Shown piece after piece: positions 2,985 to 61,633 of a stretch of 64,000 bases of DNA. The position numbers and the translations under genes were made by a program. The DNA lies in assembly GCA_964006375.1 (NCBI GenBank), contig OZ023265.1:151132769-151196768 (forward strand), read 5' to 3'. Each line of letters begins with the position of its first letter. The stretch's first letter is position 1. Under the pieces are notes generated by a model. It was not told the origin of the DNA, ran no database searches, and saw only the letters and a list, made by a program, of their open reading frames with translations. The stretch is from Tillus elongatus. Lineage: Eukaryota; Arthropoda; Insecta; Coleoptera; Cleridae.

Positions 2985-4190
2985 ATAGGGGTGTATATTA
3001 GAAAACAGACTCAGAAGTCAAATAGGGTCGCAAAAAGGAGTTTTAGGAAAGGTTATAGTATACAAGACCATATTTTCAGCCTAGCACAGATGATCGCAAA
3101 AACTCTTGAACATGACAGAAAAGTTTATGTGGCATTCATATACTTGGAAAAAGCTGTTGACCGTGTCCCAAGAAATAAAATTTGGACGATTTTAGCAAGA
3201 AGGGGTGTTGATGTAGCATTAATAACAGCAATCAAGAGCTTATATACGCACAACATAAATTATGCCAGAGTGAGGGGTAGGGAATCAAAATAATTTGTAA
3301 CTAATGATGGCCTGAAACAAAGACGAGTGCTAAGCCCCCTGGTTTTATTGTTTTCATTAGGCAGTGAAAACCCAGGATGAACAAAGTGAAGTTAGGATAC
3401 AAGAGCTTAGAATCGATGTGGCTAACAGAATGTGTATTCGCAGATGACCTTGCAATATTTGCTGTTGGGGAAAATGAACTAATAAATAACTTGACAGTTT
3501 AGAAAGAAGTTTTGGAAACGCATAATATGAAAATTAATATAGAAAAGATAAAAGTAATGGTAATCCCAAGAGAGGATAGATCCATCAGTATCGATAGCAG
3601 AAGATTAGAACATGTGGAGGAGTTCAAATACTTGGGAGTGCTTATACACAGAAGTGGGAGCTGTGAAACAGAATTGAGCACATTATAGAAAACATTGGGG
3701 AACAATACCAGCGATGAACAGCAACTTTCTGGGAAAAAGAGAGGGTGTTTACAAAAACAAAGCTCACTGTATATAAAAATATCAGCCTACTTTGAGATTT
3801 GTAAGTGAGTCATAGGTACTCTCTACTAGGCCAAAAACAAGACGCAAGCTCTTAAAATGAAATATTTAAGAAGAGTAAAGAGGGTCACGAGAAGATATAA
3901 TGTCAAGAATGATGATATAATAGAGAAGTTGGGTGTGCAATCAGTCATAGAATGTAAAAATAAGAAAAAAACTACAGTGAATGGGTCATATACATCAAAT
4001 GAGCAACAACAGACAAGTGAACAGAGTATAGGGGGCAAAAATTGCTCCAAATAGGAAGAGAGGGAGACCTCAGAAAAGCTGGAACGATAGCATGGCAGAA
4101 ATACTGCAAGAAAAAGGCAAAACGTGGCAAAAGGCAAAGCTACTAGCACAGGACAAGAAACAGGGGCAAAGTTTTTGCATGAAAAATTTT
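2985..4190 (+). pseudogene. RTE-like LINE, 5'-truncated reverse transcriptase relic
   Basis: This is the 3' half of a non-LTR retrotransposon that once encoded an endonuclease-reverse transcriptase. The reading starts at the finger region (RKGYSIQDHIFSL), continues through VAFIYLEKAVDRVPRNKIW, where the first catalytic aspartate of the usual FxDLxKAFD has become tyrosine, then GLKQRRVLSPL and the catalytic FADDLAIF near 3440. After FKYLGVLIHRSG the 3' portion near 3855-4160 matches the usual tail of these proteins (RRVKRVTRRYNVKNDDI; later GRPQ-like text and TWQKAKLLAQDKK). It is broken by stops at 3291, 3390, 3500 and 3686 and at least two frameshifts. The endonuclease domain is absent, consistent with 5' truncation on insertion. 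Clade is by motif recall; it could be a related RTE-X type. Confidence 0.75.
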
Positions 4191-5763: not shown

Positions 5764-8700
5764 TTTTTTTATTTATTTCAACAACACACCACGAGGGCTT
5801 ACAGCCTAAATACTATCGTACCGTGGGTGTTAACAAGGAGGAAAGAGGCAGCTTGTTAATTCTGGACTTGAAGGTTTGGAGGTTCGGAGGAGAAGGAAAA
5901 ACATGTGCCGGCAAGAAATTCCACAACTTGGAAGTCCTTGGGACAAAAAATCGGGCATAACAAGATGTTCTAAGTCTGGTGACCTGAGCAATAAAAGGGT
6001 GCATTCGCTGTGTCCCCCTGGTAGATCTGTTGGGGGCAGCAGGTGGGGGAACTATGGAGGAAAGCTCCTCTGAGCAGTGCCCGTGCAGATATCTATAAAA
6101 GAGAGAGAGGTCACCAACGGCACGTCGGTGGGCAAGGGATGGCAGCCTTTGGGTGAGAGTAGGGTCACCGATGAGACGTGTAGCTCTCTTTTGAATGGAG
6201 TCCAAGATAGCGAGTGTAGAAGCGGCAGCGGCACCCCAGATGTGGGAGCAGTATTCGAGGTTTTGCCTTATTTGTGAAGTATATAAGGTATAGAGATTAG
6301 TTGGTGAAAAATATTTGCAAGCCCGGAAGAGGAAAACTAATTTCTTAGCAGCCGCTTCTGCAATTGATGTGACATGTTGATGCCAATTAAGATTTCGATC
6401 CACAGAAATGCCAACAAGAGAAAAGGACTCATTACTTTGAATAACTTGGTTGTTCATTGTGATGGGTCTAGGGCTGGTGTATCTCTTATGAGAAAGAAAG
6501 CAAGACTGTGATTTGGTGCGGTTGAATTGTACAAGATTTCTACTTCCCCAGTCTAATATTTTTTGGAGATCCACGGAGACAGAACCCTCCATGAGTCTGC
6601 GATCCTCATCTAATTGGGCTAAAGAGACAGGCTTAGAATATTGTATATTTGAATGGAGGGTGCTGTCGTCCGCGTAGCTGTGAACTGGGTTGGATGTGCT
6701 AGAGAGGAGGTCATTGATATGGAGAAGAAACAAAGTAGGGGCTAAAGCTGAACCTTGAGGAACTCCTGCATTAATTGAATACAGTTTAGAGGAATGGCCA
6801 TCCACAACAACAGATGTGCTCCTGTTGGAGAGGAAATTTGCTGTCCAGGTACAAAGTTTTGGTGGTAGGCCATAGGCCGGAAGTTTATTAAGCAGCGCTG
6901 CGTGCCATACCTGGTCGAATGCTTTGGATATGTCTAGAACAACAATCTGGGATTCACCGTGTTGTTCCATAGACTTGTTCCAAGAATGGGTGACAAAGGA
7001 AAGGAGGTCGGAAGTCGATCCATACTGCCTGTTGTAGATTAGACTGTGTTTTTCGAGAAGTTTTAGTAATTCGGTGTTTATATACTTTTCCACTTTAGAG
7101 ACGACTGAAAGGAGAGAAATAGGCCTGTAGTTGCTAGGAAGCGCTTTGGATCCTTTCATGGGGATGGGTTGTACTCGAGCAGTTTTCCAGTTACTAGGGA
7201 ATCCCTTTATTATAAGATATCTGAAACAGGCTAGTCAGGAGAGGAGCAAGCTCTGGTGCGCATTTTTTGAGAACAATTGCTGGGATCTCGTCAAGGCCAG
7301 AGGCTTTCCTGGTATTAAGAGAAGAGAGCATCTCTCGTACCTTTTTAGTTTTGAAAATGATATCCGTCATTTTATGCGCGACACTGGGGACTGTTGGTGG
7401 TTGAACATTTGGAGGTGCGTTAGAGTAGAATTGCCGGCGAACAACGAAGCAAACAGTTCAGCCTTGCCTAGGGCGGTAGAAACAATTTCATCCCCTGAGA
7501 CAAGAGGTGGGAACGTACTCTTGCAGAAATTATTCCCAATAGATTTAGCAAGAGTCCAGAAGGGTTTGCTGCCGTGGCAGCTGGAGAGGACTTTGTTTTT
7601 GATGTGGTTATTAAACGGGTTTTTTGCCTCAGAAAGAATGTGGACATAGCGGTTTCTTGCGTCGTTAAATGCTTGACGATTTTCTTTACTGGGATTGTGT
7701 AGAAGCGTTTTGTGAGCTTTAACCTTTTCAAGTCTGGCCTTGTTACATGATTTAGAGAACCAGGGCTTTTGAGAGGCTGAAAAGGTTTTCTGTGTACGTG
7801 GGATAAATAATTCCATGCCAGCTTGGATGATTTCGGTGACGTTTTGTGAGATATCAGAGGGGCCAGGATGAGAGAAGCAGACAGACGCCCATGGAAATGA
7901 GGAAAAGTAATCCCGCATTTCGTCCCAGTTTGCGGAGTTGTAGTGCCAAACGATACGTGGGTGTGATGACTGTGTGACCTCGGATTGCATTGCGCAGGAA
8001 GCAGTGACCATGCCGTGGTCTGAGCGACCAAGGGGGCGGTGACTGATATCTTATAGCATTCAGGTTGTGTAGTAAGAAGGAGATCCAAGGGATTTGAGCT
8101 GTGTGTTGGGATACGAGGATAGTAAGTAGGTTGCTGAACCATATTGGCTAAAGAATTGCTGACTGCAAAGGCCTCCGCTGCTCTCCCTTGCGGATCGGTT
8201 TTTGAAGATCCTAGCCATTCCTTATTATGGACATTGAAGTCACCAAAAATAGTGACCTCGGAGGAAGGATATTCAGAAACCAGATAGTCGGTTTTTTCAG
8301 AAAGGTAGTTAAAGAGCTGGACAAAGTTGTTGTCAGAGGGTGACCGGTAAATGCAACAGATGAATTTAGTTGCAGCCCTGAGAGAGAGTTTTATCCATAG
8401 TATGTCTTTTCTTCCAGCTTCTAAATTGGGGAGTCTGGTGCAGGGTAGATTGCTAGGGACGTATGCGCACACGCCTCCATGCAATCTAAAGGAAAAAAGG
8501 AGCTCATACCCCGGGAAATTAAGGTGATTAGTGGCTGTTTTGGCACTGATTTGGGTTTTGGAGTTGGGGCCTGTTAGCCTGAAGGAAATGGTGGACGGAG
8601 TTCAGGTTAGAATTTAGGCCACATATATTCGAAAAGGATATGTTAAATCTTGATGTTGGTGTCCCCTGTACACCCCTCTCCCGGAGATTCGAATGGAGGG

Positions 8701-11293: not shown

Positions 11294-13135
11294 TTATTTA
11301 ATAAGGTTTCTGTAAATAGAAGGAAAGTTCATGCTGTTGGTGTTTGAAACATTAAGAACATTGGAGCCATTTATGTACTTGTAGATCTCCATTTCCTCCA
11401 GGACAAACCGTTCCATACCAAAACTGGATGGGTGAAGGATTCTGGCGTCGTTCTCCTTGTTAAAGGTGTGGCCGCTATCTCTGAGTTGGCAAGTTGGTGT
11501 TATCGACATTATTTCTGCTTCTAAGATGTTCAGATACCCTGGTACCCAGTGCCCTTCCCGTTCTTCCTATATAAACAGTGTTACATTGGGGGTCCCCACA
11601 GGTGAGACAATATACCCCCGACTTCTTAAGGTGAGGAATAGAATCCTCATTATGAACCAGCATCTTCTTAACAGTATATCTCGACCTGTATGCGAACTTG
11701 ACATTGTCTCTCTTTAAGAGACGAGAGACTGCAGCAGTGATTGGGCCACAGTATGTAAGAGGAAAGTATGAGGGACTCTCTGATTGGGCTGTCGAGAGAT
11801 TGGAACTTGTCTCTCTCAAGAGCTGACGACTCTTTCTTCTTATCAATCTGTCTATTAAGTCGACAGGGTATTCATTATTTACTGCTGGCTGTTTAATAAC
11901 ATTGAGCTCGTTATTAAAGTTCGTCCCCGACAGTGGGACTCGAAACAGTCTATCAATTAGATATATTATGGACGCCAATCTGTGGGACATATCGTGGCAA
12001 GATCTATATGGGATTAGGTGGTCTGTTTGTGTTGGTTTTCTATATATGTCGAATTCAATTGAGTTGTATTTTCTTGTTAACTTCAGATCCAGAAAACTGA
12101 TGGACATGTTCTCTTCAAGTTCCATTGTGAAGTTATTATTGACATGTAGATCGTTCAACCAACCGGGAAACAGGTGAAGCTGCTCTAAAGGTAACCGACC
12201 ACAACACCAACACGTCATCCACATACCGTGTCCAGGACGAAATGAAGTCCCTATATGGATTTAAATTATTGAAAACAAGTTCTTTCTCAAAGAACGCCAT
12301 GAAAACCTTTGCACACAAGGGAGGCAGTGGGTTACCCATTGGAAGACCGTCTTTTTGGAGATAAATTCTGTCATTGAACGAAAAGAAATTCTGTGCCAAA
12401 CATACCTTGACTAGGGCGTTGAGCGCTCCCGGTACTTCACGATTGAGTGAAGACGAAGCAAGGAGATTTCTCAATAGAAGAAGTGTCTGATTGACCGGGA
12501 CACTGGTAAACAAATTGGAAACGTCGAAAGACACCAATATCGTACCACCATGCACCGGTACTCCTCGAAGCCTCTCTACTAATGTGACCGAGTTCTTTAT
12601 CGAGTAAGGGGACCCTAAATCCACTCTAGACACCAGGAAAGACGAAAGGAAACCAGACAACCTGTACGTGAGACAACCCACGAACGAAACAACTGGTCTA
12701 ATGGGACAATCTTCTTTGTTTATCTTTGGTAAACCATAAAGACGAGGAACAATGTGATTCATTGGATATAAATGTTTGTAATTTTCTGATAGAACAGGTG
12801 CAAATCGATCGAAGGCCTTCTTAAACTTTGAAATGAAAGAAGGCAAGGGATTAAAATTTACTGGTAAGATTCCATTATCATTCAAGAAGCTGGCGACTTT
12901 TGGGACGTAGTCATTCTTATCCAGAATAACCACACAATGCCCATTGTCTGCCTTAGACAGAAACAAGTCATTGTCCCTGATAACTCTTTTCAATGACGAA
13001 ATGACTGAGCCGTATGGGTTGAGTCCTATCGAATTGGCTCTGAACTTGGAAATTACATTGTGGATCAAACCACGTAACAAATCTGCATTATTTTTATGTA
13101 ATTTGACTAGTTTGAATTTAACTTATTGATTGTCA
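11294..13135 (-). pseudogene. Penelope-like reverse transcriptase with GIY-YIG endonuclease
   Basis: The encoded protein combines a Penelope-type reverse transcriptase with a C-terminal GIY-YIG nuclease. From the N terminus: LSKADNGHCVVILDKNDY, then VPRLYGLPKINKEDCPIRPV, LVSFDVSNLFTSVPV (catalytic aspartate), DGLPMGNPLPPLCA and the catalytic YVDDVL at about 12,215. After a frameshift near 12,200 come SFLDLKLTRKYNSIEFDIYR and the nuclease SGVYCLTC...NTVYIGRTGRALGTRVSEHL (near 11,500-11,600), with the GIY-like GVY, YIG and arginine present. A second frameshift near 11,485 leads to the C-terminal tail ending at a stop at 11,294. Upstream of 13,080 the frame continues as KFKLVKLHKNNADLLRGLI, so the methionine near 13,080 is probably not the original start. 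Only two frameshifts: a fairly recent copy. Confidence 0.88.
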
Positions 13136-17639: not shown

Positions 17640-20600
17640 GTCGATATTATTATTACAGTCTGACTTCCGGTGCTTCAACACAGCAGACGTGTTTGAGGTC
17701 GCCACTTAACTGAGGAATTTTCGGACTATGTGACATGTCTGCAGCAGAACCGCCCTCTGCCCCATGTTTAGGATGTTATTTGGTAATCAGAGTTCCTTTA
17801 GATTTCCTATGAAATTTTTGGTGACTATTCCTTCCGCCGACATTACGAAAGGATATATAGCCACATTCTGGAGCTTCCATATGTTTTTTATTTAATATGC
17901 CAAGTTTTCATACTTGGTGATCTTTTCAATTTCAGTTTTCTGAATGTTATGGGACAGCGGTACAGCAATGTCTATGATCACAGCAAGCATCATCTGTTTG
18001 TTTATCAGGACAATGTCTGGCCTATTGAAGTCCACAGTGCGGTCCGTTATCATGGGTCGGTCCCAGTACAGGAAAAAGTCCGCCGACTCCAGCACCGCCT
18101 CCGTAGAATACTTGTAGTAAGCTGGTGTCGTTGACGGGTTCAGGAGGCTGTATTTCAAAGCGATTTGTAGATGGATGATCTTGGCGAGCTGGTTATGTCT
18201 GCCTAAGTAAGATGAGTCTGAGAGAGCAGGACATGCTGCCATGACGTGTTCAATGGTCTCTCCAACAACTGCGCATTTTAGACATTTATCCACCACTTCC
18301 AATTTTAGGCAATGCTTCTCGTAGTTTTTAGTTTTTATAACCCTATCCTGAATGGCCATCACAAAACCCTCTGTCTCCGGGTAGAGTTGCCCATTGACTA
18401 ACCATATAAGCGAAGATGTTTTATCAACACTATTCGTCTGCAGGTGTTTGGGGTACCTTCCATGCATAGCCTGGTCGCCCCACTGGACTACACCGTCCTA
18501 GTCAGCCGGGGAGTCCAACTCATAGTTGCGCTGACCCAGCCTACGTGGAGTATAATCCTTATCCTCGCACACAACTAACCTCATCAGTTCATCCTGCGAT
18601 GCAAGAAAACGTCGCATGTTTCTTTCTTGCTTAAAACAGAGGTTCTTTATATGGATTAACCCTCTGCCGCCTTCTATCCGAGGTGTATACAGTCTTCTAA
18701 CAGATGAGTTGGTGTGAAGGCAGCGAAATTTCGTAAGAAGCCTTCTCGTGAGTCTGTTCAGTTCATCCAAGTCGGTGTTAGACCACTTGACAACTCCAAA
18801 AGAATATGTCAATACTGGTACCGCCCATGAGTTGATAGCAGCACAGAGGTTACCTCCGGAAAGCTTAGTATTTATGAGCTTCGTGACTCTCTACCTATAT
18901 TTCTCCTGGAACTCCCGCTTTAGCCGGCTATGGTCCACACGCTGGTTTTGAGAACACCCTAGGTAGCGGTATGTCTCCTCAGGCGGTAGTTGTTCTATAT
19001 CGCAGAAGCAATGTTGGTCATCTTCGACTGCCCCTCTCCTGACGTTAATTATAGCACATTTGTCGAGTCCAAACGACATTTTTATATCATTGCTAAAGCT
19101 TTTAACAATATTAATCAGTGAGTGGAGCTTATCTTGTGCTTCAGAGTATAATTTAAGATCGTCCATGTATAATAAGTGGGATATTCTTATTCTGTTTTTC
19201 ATATTTAGTCTATACCCGGCTCCAGTTTTGTTTAGGACAGTCGACATGGGGTTCAGTGCCAAGCAGAACCACACCGGCGACAGGGAGTCCCCCTTAAAAA
19301 TGCCCTTTCCAATCTGCATTTTTCCACAATTTTTATTGGTCATCCATATGTTTATTCTCCAAGTACTCATGAGATGTTGAAGGACGTTTCTGATCCTTGG
19401 GCAGATCTTGTAGATTTCAAGTACCTTGTTTAACCAATCGTGGCGTACAGAATCAAATGCTTTGCTGTAGTCGATGTAGCATACATGTAAATTTCGTTTT
19501 CTTCTCTCGGCTTGTTTTAGTACTACAGCGTCTATTGTTAGCTGGTATTTGCAGCCCAAAGATTCTGTAAGACATACTTTCTGTTCCTCGTTGAAGATGT
19601 TGTTTGTCAGTCAGTGTTGATATATCTTTTCATTAATCAGGGAAGTGAAAAGCTTGTAAAGGACTGACAGGCAGGTTATTGGTCTGTAGTTTTTGGGTTC
19701 GTTTGCATCTCCTTTTTTGAAGAGCATGGAAGTGTTTCCTTTAGTGAGAAATTCGGGAACTTTATCTGGGTTGCTCAGTGCTCGGGTAAAGCATCGTGAA
19801 AGACTCTCATGCGCGCCAGTCAAATACTTAAGCCAGAAGCTATGCAGCCTGTTAGGCCCCGGGGCTCTCCAGTTCCGAGTTTTCCTGACGGCAGCAGTCA
19901 CCTCAGCTGGTGTAAACTCTCTCACCGACATCTGGGGCAAGTGCACATGCACGTCCTCCACGTCCTTGATCCATGATGCAGACCGATTAAAACCGCCTGC
20001 TTTCGCCCATGTAGTGCTCCAATATGTGTTGAAGTTGGAGCAATCGACGCTAGATGAAGCTTGTAGGTTCCCATCGGCCTCAATATTTCTCAGGAACTGC
20101 TTCTGATTGTTTCTGAATTCAGCATTCTGCTTCTTCCTTTTTGTAATCTCATTGTATCTTCTAAGCCTAGCTCCTTTGGCTTTCGCTTTTGGTCTAAGTT
20201 GATCTTTAAGATCCAAGAGTTGGTCAGTGTGGGAAGTATCTATCTTTTCTTGCGATGATCCTAATCTTTCGATACACTTTCTTTGATTGCCTGCCATCCA
20301 AAAACTCTGATATGATGTCGATTTTGCCTCTGAGCTCGTTGATGTCTTTTTCTAAGCGTTTCTGCCATTCAGGCTTTCTGTTGTCTTGGAATTTGTGATT
20401 TGACTTTGAATAAAAGTTTTTTGGCCGTTCAGCTCAACAACCGTAACTGCTGAGCAATATAAAGCCAGATGCACTTCGCGCAGGTTGTGGTGTGGGTTCA
20501 GGTACTCGGCAAGGGCATCATTGACTCTTGAGATAATTGTCTTGGCTCTAGTTATATTTCGTAACACCGGTATTACTGGCCTATCAAGTGGGTCAACTCC

Positions 20601-21484
20601 CCCAAAGTACGCTATTGAACTGAGTAGTTTCTCCTTAACTTCATCGATGTTCTGGGGTACTTGTGGGCTCTCGACGGCAAGGTCGGTCGTGTCGGTATGA
20701 ACTTGCTTAGTTTCAGCTCCGTCTTCAGGCTGTCCAAAGAGGTCCCGCTGCTGAAGTAAGTTGGCTACTTCTCGTTTGATTTCCTCACGTTCAGTCGTGG
20801 TCAGGTATCCTTTCCTCACAATCAAATTTTTTCTGTCAACTATGTTCTGCTCTGTTAAGTTTAACTCCGGGTGTCTTTTCGTGAATTCAGTGTGGAGAGA
20901 GTGTCTCCATCCAGGGAGTGGGTCTTCGTTGCACTGATTAGCGTAGTAGAACGTGCGAAGTACTTCTATATTCATTTCACGTGTCCATCCTATTCGTTTA
21001 GTGCGTTCTCTCCTGCAAGCAGCCCTCCTAACTGGGGGCGAGCCAGCAAGCAAAGTGGTTCTTCGACACCTTCTGTTTGTTCCACTCCACGGTTGTCATT
21101 TTGAGTTGTACCTTGATGGTTGACAGGGACTCGGCTTCCCCGGTTTCCTGCCGCTGGTGTCCCGCATACTGTCATACCCAGCACCAGCTCCAGGCATGCC
21201 CTGGCGCTCCCCAGGCAGCGACCTTTTTCCGAGGCTTTCATTGTTCTCCATCTTCATGGGATGCCCCTCTTTGTCCTTTTTTTTTTGGGTAAGAGGCTAG
21301 AACAAGGGAGGGAAAAAAAAGAAACCTCTGGTTAGGATGCGGATTTAGGATGTTGGTGGATGGGGAAAGGTAATAGGGATGGGAAGTGCCTGTAACCCTG
21401 GCCGGGAGCCCTTACAGGGTGCTACCGTCCGGGCCAGATGGACCCTGTTTTTTTCACGTGGTTGTTACTCCACCTCCGTTTTAT
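17640..21484 (-). mobile_element. R4/Dong-type LINE inserted in a TAA microsatellite
   Basis: A minus-strand non-LTR element whose 5' side abuts a long AAT array (21,483-21,570) and whose 3' side ends in TAATAATAATA (17,643-17,656) with more TAA triplets at 17,523-17,540. Members of the R4/Dong clade are known to insert at TAA repeats. A GC-rich 5' UTR (21,060-21,480) precedes the protein and a ~240-bp 3' UTR follows it, so the copy appears close to full length. Confidence 0.82.
17892..21053 (-). pseudogene. R4-type LINE protein: RT plus restriction-like endonuclease
   Basis: One long protein of about 1050 codons. An N-terminal region (KRIGWTREMNIEVLRTFYYA) resembles the DNA-binding start of R4 proteins. 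The reverse transcriptase follows: NYRPITCLSVLYKLFTSLI, CYIDYSKAFDSVRHDWL, GIFKGDSLSPVWFCLALNP and the catalytic LLYMDDLKLYS near 19,160. The C terminus has a zinc-knuckle-like CLKCAVVGETIEHVMAACP and the PD-D/E nuclease (RPDIVLINKQ then IIDIAVP) near 17,930-18,010. Damage is modest: in-frame stops at 19,609, 18,891 and 18,498, where the protein text continues in the same frame across each, and two frameshifts between about 20,240 and 20,390. The intact protein would cut target DNA and prime reverse transcription. Confidence 0.88.
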
Positions 21485-21570: not shown

Positions 21571-22491
21571 AATTATATTATTAGATGTTTAGCGCCTAAA
21601 AGTTAACGGCATCTATCAAAGCGTAAACAATTGCTTGATTTCCATCATATTTTAAAATTTTTAAGATTTATATCCTTTAACCTCGAAAAGTAAAACTATG
21701 AGGTATAATCTAACGTAATTTAGTCTTTATCATCTGAAAATAATAATTTATTATTTAGTTTACAAATTACATTTCAAGCTAGATATAATAAAAATTGGTT
21801 TAAATATGTATAGTTAATGTGGCTATAATTTCCAGGAACTTGTATACTTTGTAATCTCTCAAAAGTCATAAAACCGTAGTGTAGTAATCAGTATTATATA
21901 CCACTAGATCGTTATCCATTCGATATCGAGCATAATACCAAGTTATTTCCAAGTAAAATTCACAATAAATATCAAACAAGCTCTCCATTTGGAGCGTGCC
22001 AGCTTTTCACACGTATCAGAAAACAGTACACAGATTATTTTCTGTTGACTGGGTCTGTGGCTTTGATGCTAATTTCTGTTTTAAATATTTGTTGAAGGCG
22101 GAAGTATGAATATGGATATGTCAAGCCTAAAATCCAAAATGTTGCATGAAATAAAAGCTTTCAAATGGAAAGCGTATTCATGACATTTTAATTGACTAAA
22201 ATGTAACTGTTGCCTAAGTAATTTTGTCTTTAGCAATTCTGTCAGAATTTGTCACCTAGAGTACACCTATTCATTTAATTTTACCCTACTGTGTATTGTA
22301 GGCAACTACTTGACTTTAGAAAATTTACCTAAATGGATTATTTAATGAATTATAATTGAAAAGCTTCATTCTGTAATGTTATAATTACGAAGGCTAATAT
22401 TAATAATTTGAGTAGAAATAAAATTACTGCTTCAATTTACAATCTCGCCCAAAATTTGCGTGACGACAATACGTCTGTGTATTAAGACTAG
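21571..22491. other. AT-rich sequence, nothing recognised
   Basis: No motif-bearing ORF and no repeat. The last ~12 bp (AAGACTAGATGC) match the body that follows the ribozyme in the plus-strand copies downstream. Confidence 0.45.
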
Positions 22492-22906
22492 ATGCATTCT
22501 CGCAACAATTAGAACCGTAGACCGGTTTCGCTCTCATTAGAGCTTTTCAGTACGGCATACTAATTAGTATAGTAATGCATTCTCGCAACAATTAGAACCG
22601 TAGACCGGTTTCGCTTTCATTAGAGCTCTTCAGTACGGCATACTCATTAGTATACTAATGCATTCTCGCAACAATTAGAACCGTAGACCGGTTTCGCTTT
22701 CATTAGAGCTCTTCAGTACGGCATACTAATTAGTATACTAATGCATTCTCGCAACAATTAGAACCGTAGACCGGTTTCGCTTTCATTAGAGCTCTTCAGT
22801 ACGGCATACTAATTAGTATACTAATGCATTCTCGCAACAATTAGAACCGTAGACCGGTTTCGCTCTCATTAGAGCTCTTCAGTACGGCATACTAATTAGT
22901 ATACTA
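22492..22906 (-). repeat. Tandem array of five 83-bp hammerhead ribozyme units
   Basis: Five head-to-tail units of exactly 83 bp start at 22,492, 22,575, 22,658, 22,741 and 22,824 (each ATGCATTCTCGC). Each encodes a hammerhead on the minus strand. Units differ by only one to three bases, so the array is young or homogenised. Units 2-4 have one mismatch in stem II (GCTCT against AAAGC); unit 1 has CTGAAAA in the core; unit 5 has an intact core and stem II. A minus-strand transcript could be cut into 83-nt pieces. Confidence 0.92.
22826..22906 (-). ncRNA. Hammerhead ribozyme, array unit 5 (intact core)
   Basis: Minus-strand order: GCCGTA (stem I), CTGAAGA core, GCTCT-AATG-AGAGC (stem II), GAAA, AC-CG-GT (short stem III), C as cleavage-site base (GUC), then TACGGT closing stem I. 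AATTAG and CTAATT extend stem I beyond an internal loop. All invariant core bases are present. Confidence 0.88.
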
Positions 22907-22944
22907 AAGTATACTGAAGAGCTCTAATGAGAGCGAAACCGGTA
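22907..22944 (+). ncRNA. Hammerhead ribozyme, plus-strand partial copy
   Basis: After an inverted junction (AGTATACTAAAGTATACT, 22,899-22,916) the motif turns to the plus strand: CTGAAGA (22,914-22,920), stem II GCTCT/AGAGC, GAAA, CCGGT and A. Stem I is mostly lost (TATA against TACT), so this looks like a chimera at the turning point. Confidence 0.65.
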
Positions 22945-22949
22945 TACTA

Positions 22950-23215
22950 ATTAGTATGCCGTACTGAACAGCTCTAATGAGAGCGAAACCGGTCTAAGGT
23001 TCTAATTGTTGCGATAATACATCTAGTCTTACATACTTTGTTCCTATATTGGGGTAGAAATGGGCCAGGGCTGACAATTTTCTAAATTGTTAGTTGTATA
23101 CAGTCTTTATTTTTTTTTAACACTTTGTGTCATTTGGAGCTAGCGTGACAACATACTACTTGGTTCTGCAACTAGGTGGCGGCACGTCCACCACTCACTT
23201 AGTATTTTAAGTCTG
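22950..23215 (+). repeat. Hammerhead plus body, long unit copy 1
   Basis: A plus-strand hammerhead with core CTGAACA (22,964-22,970; G8 changed to C) and one stem I mismatch, followed by a ~210-bp body: CTAGTCTTACATACTTTG, GGGGTAGAAATGGGCCAGGG, a T-run, CACTTTGTGT, and GTGGCGGCACGTCCACC. The body repeats at 23,310-23,515, giving a 308-bp spacing between the two ribozymes. Confidence 0.85.
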
Positions 23216-23253
23216 TCTATACTATAGCCGTATTACTTTTGGTGCATTTTTGA

Positions 23254-23515
23254 TACAATTAGTATGCCGTACTGAAGAGCTCTAATGAGAGCGAAACCGG
23301 TCTACGGTTCTAATTGTTGCGAGAATGCATATAGTCTTACATACTTTGTCCCTATATTGGGGTAGAAATGGGCCAGGGCTGACAATTTTCTAAATTGTTA
23401 GTTAGTTGTATACAGTCTCTTTTTTTTTAACACTTTGTGTTATTTGGAGCTGGCGTGACAACATACTACTTGGTTCCGCAACTAGGTGGCGGCACGTCCA
23501 CCACTCACTTAGTAT
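23254..23515 (+). repeat. Hammerhead plus body, long unit copy 2
   Basis: The second long unit repeats the ribozyme and the same body with about ten differences. Direct repeats of a ~300-bp unit with a hammerhead are the layout of animal retrozymes and ribozyme satellites. Confidence 0.85.
23256..23315 (+). ncRNA. Hammerhead ribozyme, complete
   Basis: This is the cleanest copy. Stem I GCCGTA (23,266-23,271) pairs with TACGGT (23,303-23,308) and, past an internal loop, AATTAG with CTAATT. Core CTGAAGA is at 23,272-23,278, stem II GCTCT/AGAGC with loop AATG at 23,279-23,292, GAAA at 23,293-23,296, stem III of two pairs, and the predicted cut follows C23,302 (GUC). All invariant positions agree with the hammerhead consensus. 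The tiny stem III suggests cleavage as a dimer or in a tandem transcript. Confidence 0.92.
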
Positions 23516-24398
23516 TCTGTGTATCAACCAATTTTATATTTTGTACTAATAATACTGTAAATTTATGAAACTAAAATTTAGTCGTTTAACAAAAAATATA
23601 TACAGGCTAAGGGCTCTAGTATGATATGCCCAATTTATCGTTTACAAGAAAGGCTTTTTAGAAAAACCAGATACATACAATGTAAAGTAGAAACATTTTT
23701 GATATTTATATTATGGTCAGTATGAAGGGTATGCTTACGAGAAACACACGTTCTTTTGTATATCACTTGTTATTGGTTTATTATTATTGTTATTAGTTTA
23801 TTGGTGTATAAATTTTACAATGTTTCTTACAATAAATATTAAACTTGTGTCTACAATTGATAAAATTTGGACTTGAATAAAATGGAAAACGACAACATAG
23901 CTCGAAATCTTTTAGGCCCTGAAAACACTTCGAGTTTGGTTGTCCAAATTTCAATTTGTGCTGTGTTAATCTATTTTTAAGGACTCTGCTTGTTTGCAAA
24001 TGTATTTTAAATTTTAATTGCTACATGTGCAACATTAAATAATAACAGAATGTGTTATGAAGACTTTGACGCCTATTTATTTTTGACAAAAACAAAACAA
24101 AAACTTAAATACAGTTTGATTGCATATGTCAGATTGACGCTTATCAATTTTTATTCAAATGTAACATAAAAATGTTGTAAATCTTTTTCCAATTTAATTT
24201 TTTCAAGTTGAATTTTAAAACTTACTTTATATGCAAGTATTTAAAACATTTTTATTTTTTCTATGCACATTGTAATTTTGTCCTTCCATGTTGTCCTTGA
24301 TAAAATAATTAATCATTCCAAAAGCTCGACAATATAATACAGAGTTTTTATCTTGCAACTGACCGCTATCCTACAGATTTTAAGATATATAAATTTTA

Positions 24399-27444: not shown

Positions 27445-29130
<1,686 letters not shown>

Positions 29131-37913: not shown

Positions 37914-38200
37914 GTTGTATAATGTATAATGTATAATGTATAATGTATAATGTATAATGTATAATGTATAATGTATAATGTATAATGTATAATGTATAAT
38001 GTATAATGTATAATGTATAATGTATAATGTATAATGTATAATGTATAATGTATAATGTATAATGTATAATGTATAATGTATAATGTATAATGTATAATGT
38101 ATAATGTATAATGTATAATGTATAATGTATAATGTATAATGTATAATGTATAATGTATAATGTATAATGTATAATGTATAATGTATAATGTATAATGTAT
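37914..38200. repeat. (TATAATG)n heptamer array
   Basis: About 41 essentially perfect copies of a 7-bp unit. Because 7 is not a multiple of 3 but the unit has no stop in any frame on the minus strand, it reads as long repetitive ORFs (HYTLYII); these are artefacts. Confidence 0.98.
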
Positions 38201-39259
38201 ATATTAACAATGAAACAGGCCAATGTCACCTGAATGACACAGGGATGTTCATGTACGTCAAAAAATTAACAATAAGAACGACAATAGCACACACAATAAG
38301 CATAACAATTAAGGAAAATTTTTCCTTAAATAATACAAAACAAAGATACTTATAAAACACAGCAGCAACATATTTGTTCTCAAATATAATGGTAGACCGT
38401 ATGCTACAGCGCGCATTGATATTGTTGGGGTCGTTTTGAAAGCTCCAAGTATCAATCTCAGACTACTATTTTGAATTGTGTTAAGATAATTTAATAGTTT
38501 TTTACTTGCAGTACCATAAACTATGCTTCCATAGTCTAGTTTAGATCGTATGATTACTAAATACACTGCTAACAATCATCAGCTCCCCAAGTTAAATGTG
38601 ATATGGCTTTTAAAAGATTAATTCTGGAAATACATTCCATTTGGCGATTTTGTATATGATATTTCCAGGTTAGCTTGGTATCAAATATTAACCCTAAGAA
38701 TCGTTTTTTGTCCACTGCTTCTATCTGTTCTCCACGAAGTTTGAGTGTATAATTAATTGTCATATTTAAAATTTTAGAAAAAACCATTTCTTGTGTTTTC
38801 TGGGAAGAGAGTATAAAACCAAGATCGTTACACCAAGCATCAATTTCGTTGATTGCGGTTTGCAAAATTTTAGCCGTGGTCTTATTATTTTTACCTCTAC
38901 AAAAAATTACTATGTCATCTGCATTAAGAGATTCTGAAATTTGTGATTTAACAAGCTTAGTAATGTCATCTATTGCTATTATGAAAAGAGTTGGACTCAG
39001 TACTGAACCTTGTGGAGTTCCGTTTTCCAATTTAAATAATGAAGACCGGACATCTCCCAATTTAACATTACAAGTTTTTTAGCTTCCAGTATTTTGTATG
39101 TTACTTGATACAGGTGTTCTTGTAGCTTGAAGCTTAATAGACAAAAGTTGCGTGATTGTTTGTTATGTTTGAGCACAAAACTACCCCTAAGGCTAATGAA
39201 TCTTATCATTCGTGATTAGAATTATCACTGAATAGAAATATTCCTTACAGTGTATATTC

Positions 39260-41622: not shown

Positions 41623-42135
41623 TTATGAATCAAGCATAATTTGATGTCTGACATTTTTGACAAGTTTCAAATTTTCTTTGTCAATGTGGTGGTTATTATC
41701 CCATATATGTTGTGCCACACATGATTTGTCCACCGTACCATATCGTAACTGTGCGAGATGTTCACGAAATCTGGTGGCTATGTTTCTCCTAGTTTGGCTC
41801 ACGTATTTAAGATCACAATCTTTGCAACTAATCTCATAAATTCCGGACATTTCAGTGACTTTGTCTTTGTCTTTCGTATTACCCAACAAATTTTTTAAAT
41901 TACTTTTCGTCGAAAACGTCAAATGTAAATCGGCTTTCTTAAAAATGCTTTCCAAACCCTTTGTGATTCGTGGTTCATAAGGTAAACACACAATTTTTTT
42001 CTCGATTTTATCATTCTTAAATGTGGTACTGTCAGATATCAACTTCTTTGTTCTGTGTTTGTTAACTAATTTGTCTATTAAACCATCCACATAGTGAAGT
42101 TTGACAAGTACCTTTGTTTCATGACTAAATACGTT
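41623..42135 (-). pseudogene. Penelope-like GIY-YIG endonuclease domain
   Basis: The minus-strand frame reads VCLPYEPRITKGLESIFKKA, then MSGIYEISCKDCDLKYVSQT and RRNIATRFREHLAQLRYG. GIY is intact, YIG has become YVS, and the conserved arginine and histidine-containing HIWDNNHHIDKENL are kept. The domain nicks target DNA in active elements. The frame is open from about 42,135 to a stop near 41,623 and lacks the reverse transcriptase that should precede it. The fragments at 5.4-5.76, 8.97-9.08 and 43.4-43.6 kb match this one better than the 11.3-13.1 kb element, so at least two PLE families are present. Confidence 0.82.
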
Positions 42136-43439
42136 TTTGGTCTACACCTTTTAGATTTTCTCAACTAAACGATTTTTCCGAAAGAGTATTTTTTGCTTAC
42201 AGATGTAGAGGCTCTTTCTCTGGTTTCGCAAGTGTTTGTTTTCTTCTCTGTAACTGGATTCTCCGATTGACGACATTATCAGACAGGTGAAAATTTATTT
42301 ATACGCATGCGTGACAACAATAAATAAAAACTCGTTGTTATGTAGAAAAAAAATATAAAAAATATAATGATAATGTCATATGACGTCTTTAATTGGTGGC
42401 ACGATGCACTAACTGCACCATGCTTTTTAAAATTAATTTATACATTAAAGCATTGTTTTCAACTGGGGTAACACAGTTAAATTTATTTTCTTAAACGTGA
42501 CTTACAACTGCGCGTTACATGAAATATCGATAGGTCAGAGCGAGAAATACTCGTAATTTCTAGTAAAATATATCAATATGCAAGCAATAAAGTAAATGCT
42601 CGAACACATACAAGCCATAGCGAAGCAAAAAATACATATTCATAGTGAAATGCTTGACCTGCTGCCTCAATAAATTCTGTTTTATAGATACTCAAGTTTG
42701 CCATTTCGTGTCTGCAAATGTTTCTCAATGTGATCACAAAGTATTGCTTACCTGTTAAATTCACAACTCACATGTTATATTCATGACCTTCTAGCACGCT
42801 ACTATTCTCCTATTGAAGCGCTTAAATTGGTTATTTAAGGTAAATATGAATGTGTGTCCTCAGCCTAGATTACTTACGTTTTGGAGTGGGTTAGGGCCTT
42901 ACCAATTATTGCTAATTTTTACGTTTAGGCAATGGGTGTAAATTAAACTTTTCTGATATTGTGGAAACTTTTTTTTTTGGCTTTACGAGTGCTTGCTTCT
43001 TTCTTTGCAAACCGTTTCGGCATTTCGGTATCGTCAGTAATAGGAAAACATTAAATTCTTACGCACTCAGGTCGACTATAAATAAAAATATATTGCTAGA
43101 TTAGGATATTTACATCAAACAAATCTTTAAAAGTATTTAAAAATGACAGATGACGTTTTTAAAATGTATATGTGATGTATGTGAACCATCCAAAGAAAGG
43201 AATATTTCGATTGACTCACACCATAGTTTTGCACAAAAAACAGCTAGTTTCTGGTTCGCAGATTGATACGTTTTCCTTTAAATGGAGACAGATACATCAA
43301 ATAACTGTAATACATTAAGAACGTAATTAAGTATAACGGCTACCCTGCTTAGTAGAAAAATTAGCCAATAAACCTAAAGCAAAGCAAATGTTAGCGGAAC
43401 CAACGATTTTCAGAAAAAGAAAACTGAGAAAAACGGTGT
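42136..43439. other. AT-rich, with possible PLE end pieces
   Basis: Complement of 42,180-42,290 reads SDNVVNRRIQLQRRKQTLAK-like text and resembles the tail following the PLE nuclease. Complement of 42,985-43,040 has CTGACGA...GAAACGG, a hammerhead look-alike whose stem II does not pair. Confidence 0.35.
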
Positions 43440-51907: not shown

Positions 51908-53216
51908 CAGTAGCGGATCGTGCCTTAATGCATTGGGGGTGCGCAGGAAAAAAGTTCGGGACGCAGCAAGTGCGTTATGGTAGGAAATTTTTATTAAATG
52001 TTTCAAATTTGAATAACTCAAGTTTCTACAAACTTAAAAAGTTGAATTTTGGTATATAGTAGGGCCTTACCCAGGGAAACATATCCAATTTCATCAAAAT
52101 AGCTTGGTAATTTTTGGAGAAAAAATTTTTTTTCAAAAGAAAATTCAAAATTTGAATAACTCAATTTTATAAAAATGTAGAAAGTTGAATTTTAGTGTGT
52201 AGTAAGGTCTTTTGCAAGGCAACATATCCACCAAATTTCATTAAAATACCTTTGTAATTTTCGGAGAAAAAGATTTTTTTTTGAAACAAAACTCAAAATT
52301 TTCCCGGAAAACGTTATCCGATTTTCCTGACTAACGAACTCATCCAAGCCATTACATATATAAACATTGAAACTGATCCCGGATGTGGGTTCTAGGGGCC
52401 CTAGTTCACGCTAAGTTGAAACAATTTTTGCAAAGTCTCTCCATCGATACCTTTCTATTATGAATTTTTAATAATAAAACTTCACTGAAAATGAAGGGCT
52501 CGCCTATTTTTTCCCGAAAATGTATTATAAAGGAACCCACTTACTAAACTTAATAATTATTAACTACTCACCCAGTTTTCCTCTAGTTAGTTATACGTTA
52601 TAGTAGTTAAAAAGTCCCTTAAAAAGTTAACCTTTAAATTTAAAATATCCACTGAATTAATCACAGTATCACAATTATTTTGTGCACTTATTAAGCAACC
52701 CGAAGTAGTAGCCATAATAATAATAATTGTCTTGTTAGAACATGTAAAAAACAACGAAATGATATAATTAAAAATCAATCCGACGCGAAGACGAAAATTA
52801 CTTCGTAGTAAACCACGCTCTGCCAAAAGTCCACTATAAACTGGAAGTGTGTAATTTTATAGCGCACAACAGATTGCTTATTCGGTCGTTTTCGACGAAG
52901 GTCATCAAGATTCGGCGATCATTTCGCACTGAAGTATCCTATTTCTGGAGAGCGCCGAAAAATACACACCGCCGCCCGCCAGCTTTATATGGATATAACG
53001 TCTGTAACGATTAACACTATACTTATTCTGATTCTGTATCTGTATTAATGGCTGCCGACTCTCTGCGATCCTCGATATACTAATTTTGTTTGTTGAATAC
53101 AGGAGGTAAGAAGGTAAATAAAAATTTATTAAAATATGGCATAGCAAAAATATTGTTTTTTCCACGGCAGGCGGCGGTGCGCGCGCACAGGAGCACTTAT
53201 TGAGGAGCCGCCCCTG
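51908..53216. mobile_element. Non-autonomous hAT element inside the mariner relic
   Basis: Ends read CAGTAGCGGATCGTGCC (left) and CAGGGGCGGCTCCTC (right, complement). They are flanked by GTATCAAC (51,900-51,907) and GTGTCAAC (53,217-53,224), a 7-of-8 target duplication. Removing the interval restores the mariner reading. No transposase motif was found within. A GCAGCAAG-family copy is nested at 51,954-52,490. Confidence 0.82.
51954..52490. repeat. GCAGCAAG-family copy, shortened
   Basis: Starts CGGGACGCAGCAAGTGCG and ends with the CCATCGATACC...CTATTATGAATTTTTAA end form also seen at 56,215-56,240. Between are two tandem AATTTGAATAACTCAA segments (~120 bp apart) and a TTTCCCGGAAAACGTTATCC piece. 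Confidence 0.72.
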
Positions 53217-57560: not shown

Positions 57561-59927
57561 TAGTGGCGTGCGGTCCATGGAAGCCCCTTAAAATAACGAC
57601 TACATACCTAAACCGCATTATTTAAAATCCCTTTTGTATTTTAAATATTCAATTTCAAATTCTGAAACTAATTTAATTATTAAATTTTTTATTTCGCAAG
57701 CTCACACACAATTATTTATTATGCATCATACTGATTTGTATATACGCTCCTAGCAATGACGATGTCCCAGTAAATGCGACCGCATGCGGACAGCATGAAC
57801 CTGATCTGATACTAGGAGTGGATGCAATGACTTCAGTTAAATACACGTAGTCAGCAGGCAACTTTATAAAAGAAACCCCGGCTCAGCGCGATGTACGCGT
57901 CTTTTTAGAATGTGTTGTACTACGAAGACCCGATGCGAGTACAACGTGAATGTGCCTGATTATTTCGTAGATATAAGCAGTCGGCTAAGTTAAATACACT
58001 GGCATTTTATGATTATTAATATGGCTGCAAGTAGATCAACTTTTAACAGCGGTGACGGTGGGGGTGGAGATTTACAAACTTTACAAACAAGTGGTAATAA
58101 TAACTGTAATTGTATTGTGTGTTTTTTGATAACTAAAGGATTTTCAGCTTTACAGTTTGCTGAAAAACTTGCTATTATTAATAAAGGTAGGTCGAAACCT
58201 ACTCTAAAAAACTTAAATACAAGAATTAAAACATGTACCTATTCGACATTTCAACGCGGAACAATATGAATGGTTAACGGGTTGTGAAAACAGGAATAAA
58301 CTGTTTTGTTGGTCTTGTATTCTTAAATACGAAATTTGTTTAAAAAATCACTTGTAACAGCCTAACGTTTTTCGCGGGACATAAAATCGCATTCAGAATG
58401 ACTTAATTTCGGCTGCTGCCACTATTATTTTGAACAGAATTAAATCTGAAATTAAACAGATTCGTTTCATTGCTATTGTTCTAGATGAAACAACCGATGT
58501 AACTAATTTTAGTCAACTATCTGTAGTAATACGCTACGTAAAAATGGATCGGAGTGTACAAGAAAGATTTTTAGGCTTTAAAAATGTGACAGAAGATCGT
58601 ACCGCAAACGCTGTATATAAAATTGTGCTTAATATTATGAAAGATATTGACGAGACTGATAATAAATTAATTGCCCAAAGCTATGATGGGGCTGCTGTTA
58701 TGGCCGGACATTTAGGAGGTCTTCAAGCTAAAGTGCGGCAAACGTTCTCCATTGCTCTATTTGTACACTGTTGTGCTCATAAATTAAATTTAATTTTATC
58801 CCAATCTGTAAATCATATTAAAGAATGTTAAGTGTTAAATGGCTGCTTTTTTTCCAAATCTACGAAGCGCACACAAGCCTTAGACTCAATTGTTAAAAAA
58901 CGTTTACCCAAAGTAGCTGCAACCCGATGGAACTACAACGGCAGACTTGTGTTAACTATATTTGAACACCGTGAATCATTAATTTAACTTTTTGAAAACA
59001 TAATGGAAAATAGCAAAAATTGGGACGCAGAAACAATAAATAGTTCTAGAGGATTTTTAGATGGTTTGAAAGGAGACTTTAATTTTCATTTTTTACTTAA
59101 TATATTTTCGGAAATATTTCCGTTTTCAGATAATGTATTTAACATATTGCAATGTAAAATAAATTACATTGGTTCTCACCTGAAAAAAAAAATAGTGAAT
59201 TTAAATCCATTGTAATCCAAAAAAGGAATGAATTTGATAAGTTCTGGGAAAAAACAATTGAATTAGAAGTGGAGCCACGAAGAAAGGGTGTGCGCACTGA
59301 TAATGTGGGAGACCTTCAAACTTTACCGCCGCCTTTTCTACGAAATTATAGATCAAATTCAGCAGCAAATTAACTGCAGATTTTATCATCTCAGTGACCT
59401 GAAATTTCTTGAATTGTGTAATTTTGGAGGATTTAAAGGGATACCTTTCCCAGAAGATTGATTCAAATCATTATTTCACCACTATGGACATTATTTTGAC
59501 ACAGCCTTATTACGATCAGAACTTACAGTCATTTATGAACCCGATGTTATTGACACAAAAACTAACGCGAGTGAACTTTTAACTTTCTTAAAACAATCAA
59601 AATTGGAAAATTCATATTCTGAAGTGTTCAAATTATGTGAATTAGTATTAACAATTCCTGCTATTAGTGCACCTTTCGGACGAAATTTTTCTATATTGAA
59701 ACGTATCAAGAGTTTTGTTAGAAATTCAACAGGACAGGAAAGACTTTCCCAAATTTCAATTTTGTCAGTTGAAAATAAACTCGTCCAGGAAATGTCCCAG
59801 AATCCACAGTTACATGACGACATTATTAACGAATTTTCCAAAAACGACAGAAGAATCGAGTTACACTACAAATAGGTAAGTTTCTAAGAATTGCTTCCAT
59901 TATTTCAAATGTTACCGCACACCCCTG
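57561..59927 (+). mobile_element. hAT transposon, near full length, perfect target duplication
   Basis: Ends TAGTGGCGTGCGG (left) and CAGGGGTGTGCGG (right, complement) are flanked by identical 8-bp GATTTTCC at 57,553-57,560 and 59,928-59,935. The element is 2,367 bp and encodes a decayed transposase on the plus strand. Confidence 0.92.
58009..59875 (+). pseudogene. hAT transposase (ZMYM1/DUF4371-like), decayed
   Basis: Plus-strand fragments in order: an N-terminal section (58,009-58,269) with CNCIVCFLITKGFSAL and PTLKNLNTR; the catalytic part (58,430-58,831) with FIAIVLDETTDVTNFSQLS (first aspartate), ERFLGFKNVTEDRTANAVYK, AQSYDGAAVMAGHLGGLQAK (second aspartate) and FVHCCAHKLNLILSQS; a diverged insertion domain (59,003-59,400); and the dimerisation end (59,603-59,875) ISAPFGRNFSILKRIKSFVR. 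At least four frameshifts or stops (near 58,270, 58,830, 58,985, 59,215) separate them. This family excises and reinserts with 8-bp duplications; this copy cannot. Confidence 0.85.
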
Positions 59928-59935
59928 GATTTTCC

Positions 59936-60074
59936 TTCTACTTTACCAACAGTTTTTATTTTATCAAATGTGTGTAGAAAGAAATTGTTTAGACGAGATC
60001 ACTACTTAAATTTGTTTTTTATTTTCCATCAACAAAACATTTTTCTAGTCTTTTAATGATGATGATAAAAAACT
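59936..60074. other. AT-rich flank of the hAT element
   Basis: Nothing recognised. Confidence 0.4.
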
Positions 60075-60180
60075 AAATTTAGAAGTTTTTTAGCTTCCCG
60101 TATTTTGTATGCTACTTCGTATAGGTGCTCTTGAAGCTTGAAGCTTAATAGACAAGGTTGCGTAATTGTGTAAAGTAAGT
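60075..60180 (-). pseudogene. I-like LINE fragment
   Basis: Nucleotide match to 39,075-39,160 (TTTTTTAGCTTCC, TTGTATG, AGCTTGAAGCTTAATAGACA), i.e. a short piece of the same LINE family's reverse transcriptase region on the minus strand. Confidence 0.7.
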
Positions 60181-60281
60181 TTTTCTTAGTCTGTCCATTT
60201 TCTTTTTTTTTTTCAGTATTTTTTTAAATAAGTTGCCCAAAAATTATTATGGCTTAGAATATAACTAAGAGTTTTCTTCTG

Positions 60282-60960
60282 TCAATTTTTTTTCAGCAAG
60301 TATCTTTCTTCTCTCACCTCTTCCTGCAAAATTTTATTAATTTTTCTATCTGTGTACCTTGTTTTTGTATTTTCAAAAGCTTTTATTCTCCTTAAGTCCT
60401 GCTTATTCAAAGTCCAGTTTTTCCAACATGCCCTACAACACTCCATACAAATGACCTGATAAACCTTTTCCTCCAATTGAATTTAAAATGATTATTAGTA
60501 AAAAAGCATTTGGCCTATTGAATGTTTTTCCTTCTCAGTTCTTTGACACATTTAGCGCCATTCGAAATAATACACCCAGGCCAAGTGATTTTATTTAAAC
60601 TTAATAAATTGAACACGTTTGATGTTAAGCTCCAATTTCATATCCATTAATATCTATTATGGTCTTTGATTTTTCTACAGATTGGGAATGATACCCCTAA
60701 CCCCCGAACCCACTTCAGATCTCTTCATTTGTCCAATCTGCATTATATAATGCTTGCCCATGTCGAGAAAAGCCATAATCGTATCTTTATCTTCTCAAGC
60801 CTCTTACTCCCATTGTTTTAAGTGCAAGAACTGCTTCTTAGTTTCTTGTGTTGATCCAAATTTGAACTGACCTTAATCCAAGGAACTTAGGATCTTGCAT
60901 CTTATTCGTTTGATTATCTGCACCTTTTGATTACTGCACATTCCATTGCTTTTTGTATAG
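60282..60960 (-). pseudogene. RTE-like LINE relic, C-terminal part
   Basis: The minus strand reads WKNWTLNKQDLRRIKAFENT then DRKINKILQEEV, like the SWTL.KED.RRI.AFE...W.DR.TN..VL segment after the reverse transcriptase. Farther upstream (near 60,600-60,500) it reads WPGCIISNGAKCVKELRRKN, matching the usual YLG..I..DG....EI region, and near 60,800 a K.....G.K..I FADD-distal section is barely traceable. Several frameshifts. It may belong to the same broad family as the relic at 3-4.2 kb. Confidence 0.6.
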
Positions 60961-61161
60961 TATATTTAGCACATAAAAACCATACCTAATACAAACAAGC
61001 GTTTTTTGGGATAAGATATAAATAACTTCTTGACTAATTAAATCCTTATGGAGCCGTCATTTCAAAATTCGCTAGAATATCGGCTTTCCAAAAATACTCC
61101 TGTTCCACCAATATTTCTACACACTCTTGTATATATTGTATGCTCTTTCACAGACACACAC

Positions 61162-61167
<6 letters not shown>
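60961..61167. other. AT-rich sequence, nothing recognised
   Basis: No recognisable gene. Confidence 0.4.

Positions 61168-61257
<90 letters not shown>
61168..61257. repeat. (AT)n microsatellite
   Basis: About 44 AT dinucleotides, directly next to the Gypsy 5' LTR. Confidence 0.97.
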
Positions 61258-61260
<3 letters not shown>

Positions 61261-61633
61261 CACAGCGAACAGTCTGGAATGACATTTCTAGAATAGACCA
61301 GAAGTGACAGGTGTAGAATCGTGTAGAGGGTCTAGAATCTCTATATGGACGGTATAAATAGATGAGCGGTGCGCAGAGTTAGTTAGTTCAGTATTGACTT
61401 AGTGTGGTGAAGAAGTGATCATAGAGTATTAAGGGAGTCAGCAGTAGGTGTTGGTGTTTAAGAAGCGACCATAGAAGGCGAATAGTAGAATATAGTACTA
61501 TGGGCATTTAAGAATAGAGAGAAATATTTTAGTTGATACTGGTGTTGGAAAATAGTTGCTAATAATAAATTTGTAGATTGGAAAGCTGTGTTTTGTCAGT
61601 CAACGAATCCAGAACCCAGTAAAACGTAATAAC
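61258..61633 (+). repeat. Gypsy 5' LTR
   Basis: Starts TGTCACAG just after the AT tract. It contains a TATAAATA box and TCAGT initiator, a late AATAATAAAT signal near 61,560, and ends near AACGTAATAAC before the primer-binding site. Confidence 0.85.
61353..61392 (+). promoter_or_regulatory. LTR core promoter: TATA box and initiator
   Basis: TATAAATA at 61,353-61,360 and the arthropod-type initiator TCAGT at 61,388-61,392, about 30 bp apart. Confidence 0.7.

Follow-up and report, generated by a model that had tools for sequence, protein, structure and literature searches.

What kind of element carries hammerhead ribozymes (HHRs) on both strands and at two different spacings, 83 bp and 308 bp, and how could such a mixture have reached its place in a chromosome? 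The question is raised by a locus of Tillus elongatus that lies in a 64-kb window (the whole stretch of DNA analysed here; GC 35%). We consider it, with a probability of roughly 0.7, to be a metazoan (non-LTR) retrozyme of ~308 bp, non-coding, that arrived as a one-event insertion by Penelope-like or LINE target-primed reverse transcription from multimeric RNA. Metazoan retrozymes are known, insects included, and are described as tandem elements of 170-400 nt with low GC (PMC7229834; this and the other papers are cited for the passages drawn upon).

Units of the array and state of their hammerheads

The array is real and has the frame of a type I hammerhead. The composite insertion (22486..23515, 1030 bp) lies between two target-site duplications and contains all eight matches that the array's own covariance model gave in the window, seven of which are its training rows. 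Sequence comparison and this model revealed no similarity of the unit to the rest of the 64-kb window and no second locus. An earlier note had delimited the feature as 22492..23520; the array is indeed found there, but the feature extends further, with target-site duplications at 22474-22485 and 23516-23527.

On the minus strand, repeat searches define five 83-bp units (22492..22907), each composed of a 59-nt HHR and a 24-nt AT-rich palindromic linker. Tandem Repeats Finder reports a period of 83 with 5.1 copies at 22487-22907 (97% matches), and the unit starts in the repeat search are spaced by exactly 83 bp four times. The exact period agrees with the earlier description of the array, but the copies are not identical in sequence, the minus units showing 96.3-98.8% identity to the unit at 22575-22657.

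The plus strand carries two long units that are offset by 308 bp and are 93.9% alike across 262 columns. Plus unit 1 comprises an HHR (22949..23007), a body (23008..23206) and a 50-bp tail or linker (23207..23256) that occurs after body 1 only, while plus unit 2 comprises an HHR (23257..23315) and a body (23316..23515), at the end of which the right target-site duplication begins. Both bodies are about 200 bp long (~210 bp in the earlier note), and the 308-bp unit has 38% GC. The body of plus unit 1 is without an ORF of 110 aa, and no Pol III A or B box with two or fewer mismatches occurs on the sense strand of either plus unit. Of the three plus-strand copies counted before, the two that are 308 bp apart stand, whereas the third (22912..22947) is just a 36-nt HHR fragment in a 50-bp register, in which most of stem I is gone and the linker of the next unit joins straight after CCGGT. 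Tandem HHR units of ~170-400 bp with GC below 50%, by which retrozymes are recognised, are represented here by just these two units.

Read from 5' to 3', the HHR consists of AAUUAG-UAU-GCCGUA, CUGAAGA, GCUCU-AAUG-AGAGC, GAA, ACCGGU, C, and UACGGU-U-CUAAUU. This includes every part expected of a type I hammerhead, namely CUGANGA, stem II, GAAA, A15.1-U16.1, NUH and an open stem I. Stem I has 12 bp and is interrupted by a small internal loop (UAU/U), loop AAUG is also present, and stem III consists of a loopless palindrome, ACCGGU.

The full frame occurs in seven copies. Two are intact, m5 (22839..22897, minus strand; predicted cleavage after 22852) and the HHR of plus unit 2 (predicted cleavage after 23302); these are identical across 59 nt and retain all core bases and stems, and the earlier note had read them in the same way. 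G8 is lost in m1 (22507..22565, minus strand; G8A, core CUGAAAA), the 3' side of which continues as body sequence to the left target-site duplication, and in the HHR of plus unit 1 (G8C, CUGAACA, with an additional stem I mismatch; cleavage position after 22994). Both are predicted to be dead; a hammerhead of S. mansoni with CUGANAA was predicted to be inactive and was found not to cleave (PMC8490949). The remaining three, all on the minus strand, combine an intact core with a C.A mismatch in stem II: m2 (22590..22648), which also has an outer stem I mismatch, m3 (22673..22731) and m4 (22756..22814), with predicted cleavage after 22603, 22686 and 22769, respectively. With G8 mutated in two of seven hammerheads and stem II weakened in three of seven, the insertion copy appears from its sequence to be decaying.

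Several scans agree in confining this structure to the array. One hammerhead descriptor matched five places in the window (m2-m5 and 23257), every one in the array, and a second, differently set descriptor matched five in the window and none in any of 200 resamples from a first-order Markov model. When the core CTGANGA-N14-GAAAC was scanned with at most one mismatch, nine matches were found in the window, eight of them within the array (expected 0.93). Stem cells are paired at 95.8%, compared to 33-39% for slid controls. The pairing had been called covariant, which we do not find: the stems are complementary, yet none of the 19 pairs is changed on both sides among the five distinct rows of the seven, the copies being very alike.

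Covariance models and predicted folding

The earlier note had looked to the Rfam covariance models for a check, and these gave no hammerhead match at gathering cutoffs over the window. In a search of 1.2 kb, to which alone its E values refer, the HH9 model remained below threshold at 18.6-25.8 bits (cutoff 52), with 24.8 bits on each intact copy, the top score of 25.8 bits on m1 with its mutated G8, and 18.6-19.1 bits on the other five copies. As yardsticks we used six loci in viral contigs that matched a looser core pattern and are unrelated in sequence to the array. By reading, their stem I is complementary and their stem III looped, features that the search pattern had not demanded. All six are below Rfam gathering as well, and the two that were scored singly gave 20.2 and 21.8 bits; the Rfam cutoff is therefore no evidence against the array HHRs. 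The array's own covariance model found three of the six (E 0.004-0.095) and missed the other three.

The viral-contig searches yielded some observations of their own. The hammerhead-like loci with looped stem III (L003, at 4073-4127, and L004-L008) include three, L005, L006 and L008, whose ribozymes and downstream sequences are nearly identical although they come from different contigs. The pattern CTGANGA-N14-GAAACCGGTC matched two loci in viral contigs, judged to be chance by reading. The body pattern had no matches in the viral contigs, none of five pattern matches to a Penelope-like RT in these contigs was confirmed, and no relatives were found in bacterial genome contigs.

The short stem III bears on how the ribozymes would cleave. 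Amphibian HHRs have one pair closing a palindromic tetraloop, and their dimers cleave much better (PMC7229834). The dimeric type I HHR of the newt and axolotl satellites resembles that of the array in this respect, with stem III reduced to one pair that closes a palindromic tetranucleotide, CCGG in the array, although host and body are unlike those of the array. A palindromic stem III is also described for repeat-type hammerheads, for example those of Aedes (PMC3088659), and stem III is typically longer in invertebrate HHRs (PMC7229834). By analogy, the array HHRs are expected to cleave as dimers of the newt type.

The 59-nt HHR has a predicted fold of -18.0, compared to -10.0 (sd 2.4) for shuffles. 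In all four adjacent 83-bp pairs, the double form gains 5.5 kcal/mol over a pair of single forms; since the single forms were scored without stem III, this gain is mostly that helix, and the energies are without tertiary contacts. With the 308-bp pair, constraint to the double form gives -90.4 kcal/mol, the single form -82.9 kcal/mol and the free optimum -94.0 kcal/mol. Folded freely, the tandem 83-bp pairs reach an optimum (-36 to -39) that is something other than a hammerhead. In the minimum free energy structures of single units and of a 308-nt circle, stems I and II form, and CUG of the core pairs with CGG, replacing stem III. Three of four 83-nt circles are without stem I or II, and the fourth forms both. 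Neither kind of circle surpasses its shuffles in stability: z is -0.65 for the one 83-nt circle compared and -0.59 for the 308-nt circle.

In predicted folds of RNA from the full locus, the inversion is crossed by 220 of the 384 pairs for one strand and by 209 of 360 for the opposite strand, and the 5' strand of stem I is paired with its own partner in none of six hammerheads (m1, m3-m5 and those of the two plus units). The antisense arm is transcribed ahead of the sense arm, whichever the direction. Read-through RNA is predicted by this modelling to fold as one long hairpin, and the locus probably does nothing much now. The earlier proposal that it can make 83-nt and ~308-nt RNAs is weakened on three counts: the mutated G8, the weak stem II, and the predicted pairing of the arms across the inversion.

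Such a hairpin could itself be the point of the locus, with the inverted arms giving dsRNA for siRNAs or piRNAs and the ribozymes being incidental. Besides the pairs that cross the inversion, this very improbable explanation can draw on ten arm pairs of 74-89 nt that are 93-100% complementary, and on three Rfam miRNA models, whose scores of 36-60 bits on the hairpin are below gathering. However, complementary arms are expected of any recent inverted repeat, the miRNA matches are dismissed as the inverted repeat itself, and insertion commonly produces copies in head-to-head arrangement (PMC2837659, PMC3846280).

Anatomy of the insertion

The composite is bracketed by a target-site duplication of 12 bp, with TCTGTGTATTAA on the left (22474..22485) and TCTGTGTATCAA on the right (23516..23527) matching at 11 of 12 positions. 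Among 3000 boundary pairs drawn at random with equal offset freedom, eight equalled it, a chance figure that was computed after the duplication was seen. For retrozymes, a target-site duplication, when present, is expected to exceed 4 bp and to come without LTR, PBS or PPT. At the left edge, element sequence extends three bases (TAA) into the duplication. A carrier transposon (Helitron or other) was considered through repeats common to the flanks (~1.5 kb on each side) and rejected, the best such repeat being 16 bp with an E value of 0.06.

Inside the duplication, the two arms meet by their 5' ends near 22908. Palindromes adjoin this head-to-head junction at 22889..22907 (ATACTAATTAGTAT at 22889-22902 and TTAGTATACTAA at 22896-22907); similar palindromes are present in each of the five minus linkers as well as at 22944-22957, and they are not unique to the junction. 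A second junction, of the 50-bp register, where CCGGT meets ATACTAATTAG, is one base off the cleavage site, and our guess is that reverse transcription may have jumped templates here, onto an RNA end left by self-cleavage.

Taken together, a partial tandem, a head-to-head inverted copy, a palindrome and a short duplication match the anatomy of Penelope insertions. Those of A. vaga show partial tandems, an inverted copy that is mostly head to head, duplications of 8-10 bp and microhomology deletions, and the palindromes at their junctions are ascribed to self-priming (PMC3846280). The array shares with Penelope-like elements the tandem and inverted arrangement, the palindromes and the microhomology deletion (PMC3846280, PMC11167929), whereas its duplication is 12 bp long instead of 8-10 bp. 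L1 twin priming also produces two inverted fragments within target-site duplications (PMC2837659). In vitro, a Penelope-like protein acts on both strands, cutting and extending each, which would offer a natural route to two arms (PMC11167929). Since the window has Penelope-like remains but also LINEs, one of them R2-like, either kind may have supplied the insertion agent.

This anatomy could also be read as that of solo pLTRs of a Penelope-like element, with the body as the pLTR, the HHR as the element's own minimal hammerhead and no independent retrozyme. Penelope pLTRs measure 181-218 bp, occur in tandem or inverted, and come with palindromes and short duplications, a tail being optional, not unlike the ~260-bp unit of HHR and body with its 50-bp tail (PMC3846280); moreover, the minimal HHRs of these elements are usually without non-conserved stem III nucleotides (PMC7761336, PMC6155905), and stem III of the array is loopless. 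We nevertheless hold this reading to be unlikely. The unit shares no sequence with the two Penelope-like remains in the window or with the rest of it, and no other hammerhead was found in the window by the array's own covariance model. In a Penelope-like element, these repeats should flank the element's own RT/GIY-YIG ORF, and the array unit is without an ORF, with no stop-to-stop ORF of at least 110 aa between 21.1 and 29.4 kb.

The comparison with metazoan non-LTR retrozymes (PMC7229834) is closer. The locus resembles those described there in its type I HHR, in its short, non-coding, low-GC tandem unit, the 308 bp of which fall within 170-400, in its target-site duplication, and in the presence of Penelope-like elements in the same genome. 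It differs in its 83-bp HHR-only units, which are below the published range, in the mixing of 83- and 308-bp units in one insertion, and in the head-to-head inverted arm. The locus had been called retrozyme-like with a dimer-type HHR before, and this description is borne out as far as the type I frame, the 308-bp unit with its low GC, the tandem arrangement and the short duplication are concerned.

A retrozyme insertion of this kind could have formed in four steps. First, tandem retrozyme RNA would be cut after GUC by pairs of hammerheads with a common stem III, as sequence and energies suggest. Second, a 308-type unit would lose its ~225-nt body at TGCAT, giving an HHR-only 83-bp unit that then multiplied; the sequence relationship can be read directly, and we infer the order and the agent. 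Third, reverse transcription at a staggered nick, through twin priming or self-priming of a palindrome, would lay down one arm in sense orientation and another inverted against it, head to head, within the 12-bp duplication, the arrangement being as observed and the mechanism a likely route to it. Fourth, the copy would decay by the mutations seen in it, and its inverted arms, folding as predicted, would mask the ribozymes of any read-through RNA.

For the return of retrozymes to DNA, Penelope-like elements have been proposed as a strong candidate on the grounds of common hammerheads, tandem copies and co-existence (PMC7229834). A retrozyme whose insertion shows Penelope-like anatomy would be evidence of a different kind for this route. 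It also raises the question of whether head-to-head arms and short duplications are to be found in the host's other retrozyme copies.

Origin of the 83-bp unit

The HHR of plus unit 2 sits between two copies of TGCAT exactly 83 bp apart, the left member of this direct repeat being at 23243..23247 and the right member, which corresponds to the junction of the 83-bp unit, at 23326..23330 (both on the plus strand). The 83-bp unit corresponds to this TGCAT-bounded segment arranged head to tail, or a 308-type unit minus its ~225-bp body. Among 20,000 random breakpoint pairs, 0.8% had at least five matching bases; these statistics were made after the repeat was seen. In plus unit 1, TGCAT is mutated (ACAT), and a test for spacing 83 returned zero because that copy was in the model circle. 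The linker sequences differ (AGTATACTAATTAG versus TTTGATACAATTAG), and the parent of the 83-bp unit was thus not exactly plus unit 2.

The middle three minus units have in common a derived stem II base (the AAAGC change) that is absent from both outer units, which suggests that some of the growth occurred by DNA duplication and not by copying of one circle. The same distribution would suit ordinary satellite DNA, in which the 83-bp units stem from unequal crossing-over and the array has no RNA or ribozyme role, as a change limited to the middle units arises more easily by local DNA duplication. Nonetheless, we judge this fairly unlikely as an account of the locus, for it leaves unexplained both the target-site duplication around the whole composite and the head-to-head arms. 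It may account for later growth of the 83-bp array only, and to that extent partly coexists with the retrozyme insertion favoured above.

Judged from its sequence, the 83-bp unit could possibly give rise to an 83-nt circle. A stronger proposal is that it constitutes a self-standing minimal retrozyme, whose HHR-only 83-nt circle is cut by paired hammerheads, closed, and used as a rolling template by a Penelope-type RT; we regard this as improbable. If it were true, the body would be dispensable, and a minimal retrozyme would exist below the circle sizes reported for retrozymes in the papers cited here. The 83-bp derivative asks what retrozymes need besides a hammerhead.

The W-elements and SM-alpha of Schistosoma are similar to the array in that satellite-like HHR repeats mix intact and core-mutated copies, including the inactive CUGANAA copy (PMC8490949). 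Full monomers of the schistosome HHR families have 333-428 bp, and in W25.2, an HHR-bearing family, partial copies of 81-88 bp are called dominant on an autosome (PMC8490949). We liken the latter to the 83-bp unit by length only, the passage in question being silent on their HHR content and tandem state. No description of an 83-bp HHR-only array was found in the literature searched, most subscription papers being outside its reach. What is new here is the 83-bp HHR-only form and the anatomy of the insertion; the locus is otherwise ordinary in kind.

The window holds a number of other repeats and mobile element remains. A decayed element at 11475-13122 (minus strand) has an RT ORF at 12136-13122, in which RVT_1 scores below its cutoff; the relatives of the RT are from a ladybird, Diabrotica and a locust, the nearest named one being the ladybird protein at 47% identity, and the C-terminal part looks GIY-YIG-like by eye with no Pfam match. 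A second fragment at 41623-42141 (minus strand) has a GIY-YIG Pfam match just above cutoff, and the array's own covariance model, run over the window, found no hammerhead near it. Both we take to be Penelope-like, from RT relatives with GIY-YIG domains. The R2-like LINE at 17892-21095 (minus strand) is split into five adjoining stop-to-stop pieces; its RT is nearest to R2 proteins in PDB, zf-RVT is below cutoff, and the retrozyme is ~1.4 kb upstream. Another LINE (5813-8601, minus strand) has its RT and endonuclease domains in separate ORFs, with an RT that is 66% identical to its best unnamed protein and 57% identical to its best-scoring named relative, from the beetle Acanthoscelides; this and the ladybird match point, if only tentatively, to a beetle genome. 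Tandem repeats include a perfect 7-bp one (TGTATAA, 41 copies, 100% matches) at 37916-38201, near an RVT_1 fragment at 38569-39078, and two with two copies each, at 28267-28848 (288 bp, 84%) and 52005-52301 (143 bp, 81%). Finally, remains of a hAT transposase (DUF4371 and hAT dimerisation) occur at 58385-63197 (plus strand), together with a gag-type aspartyl-protease region of an LTR-like element.
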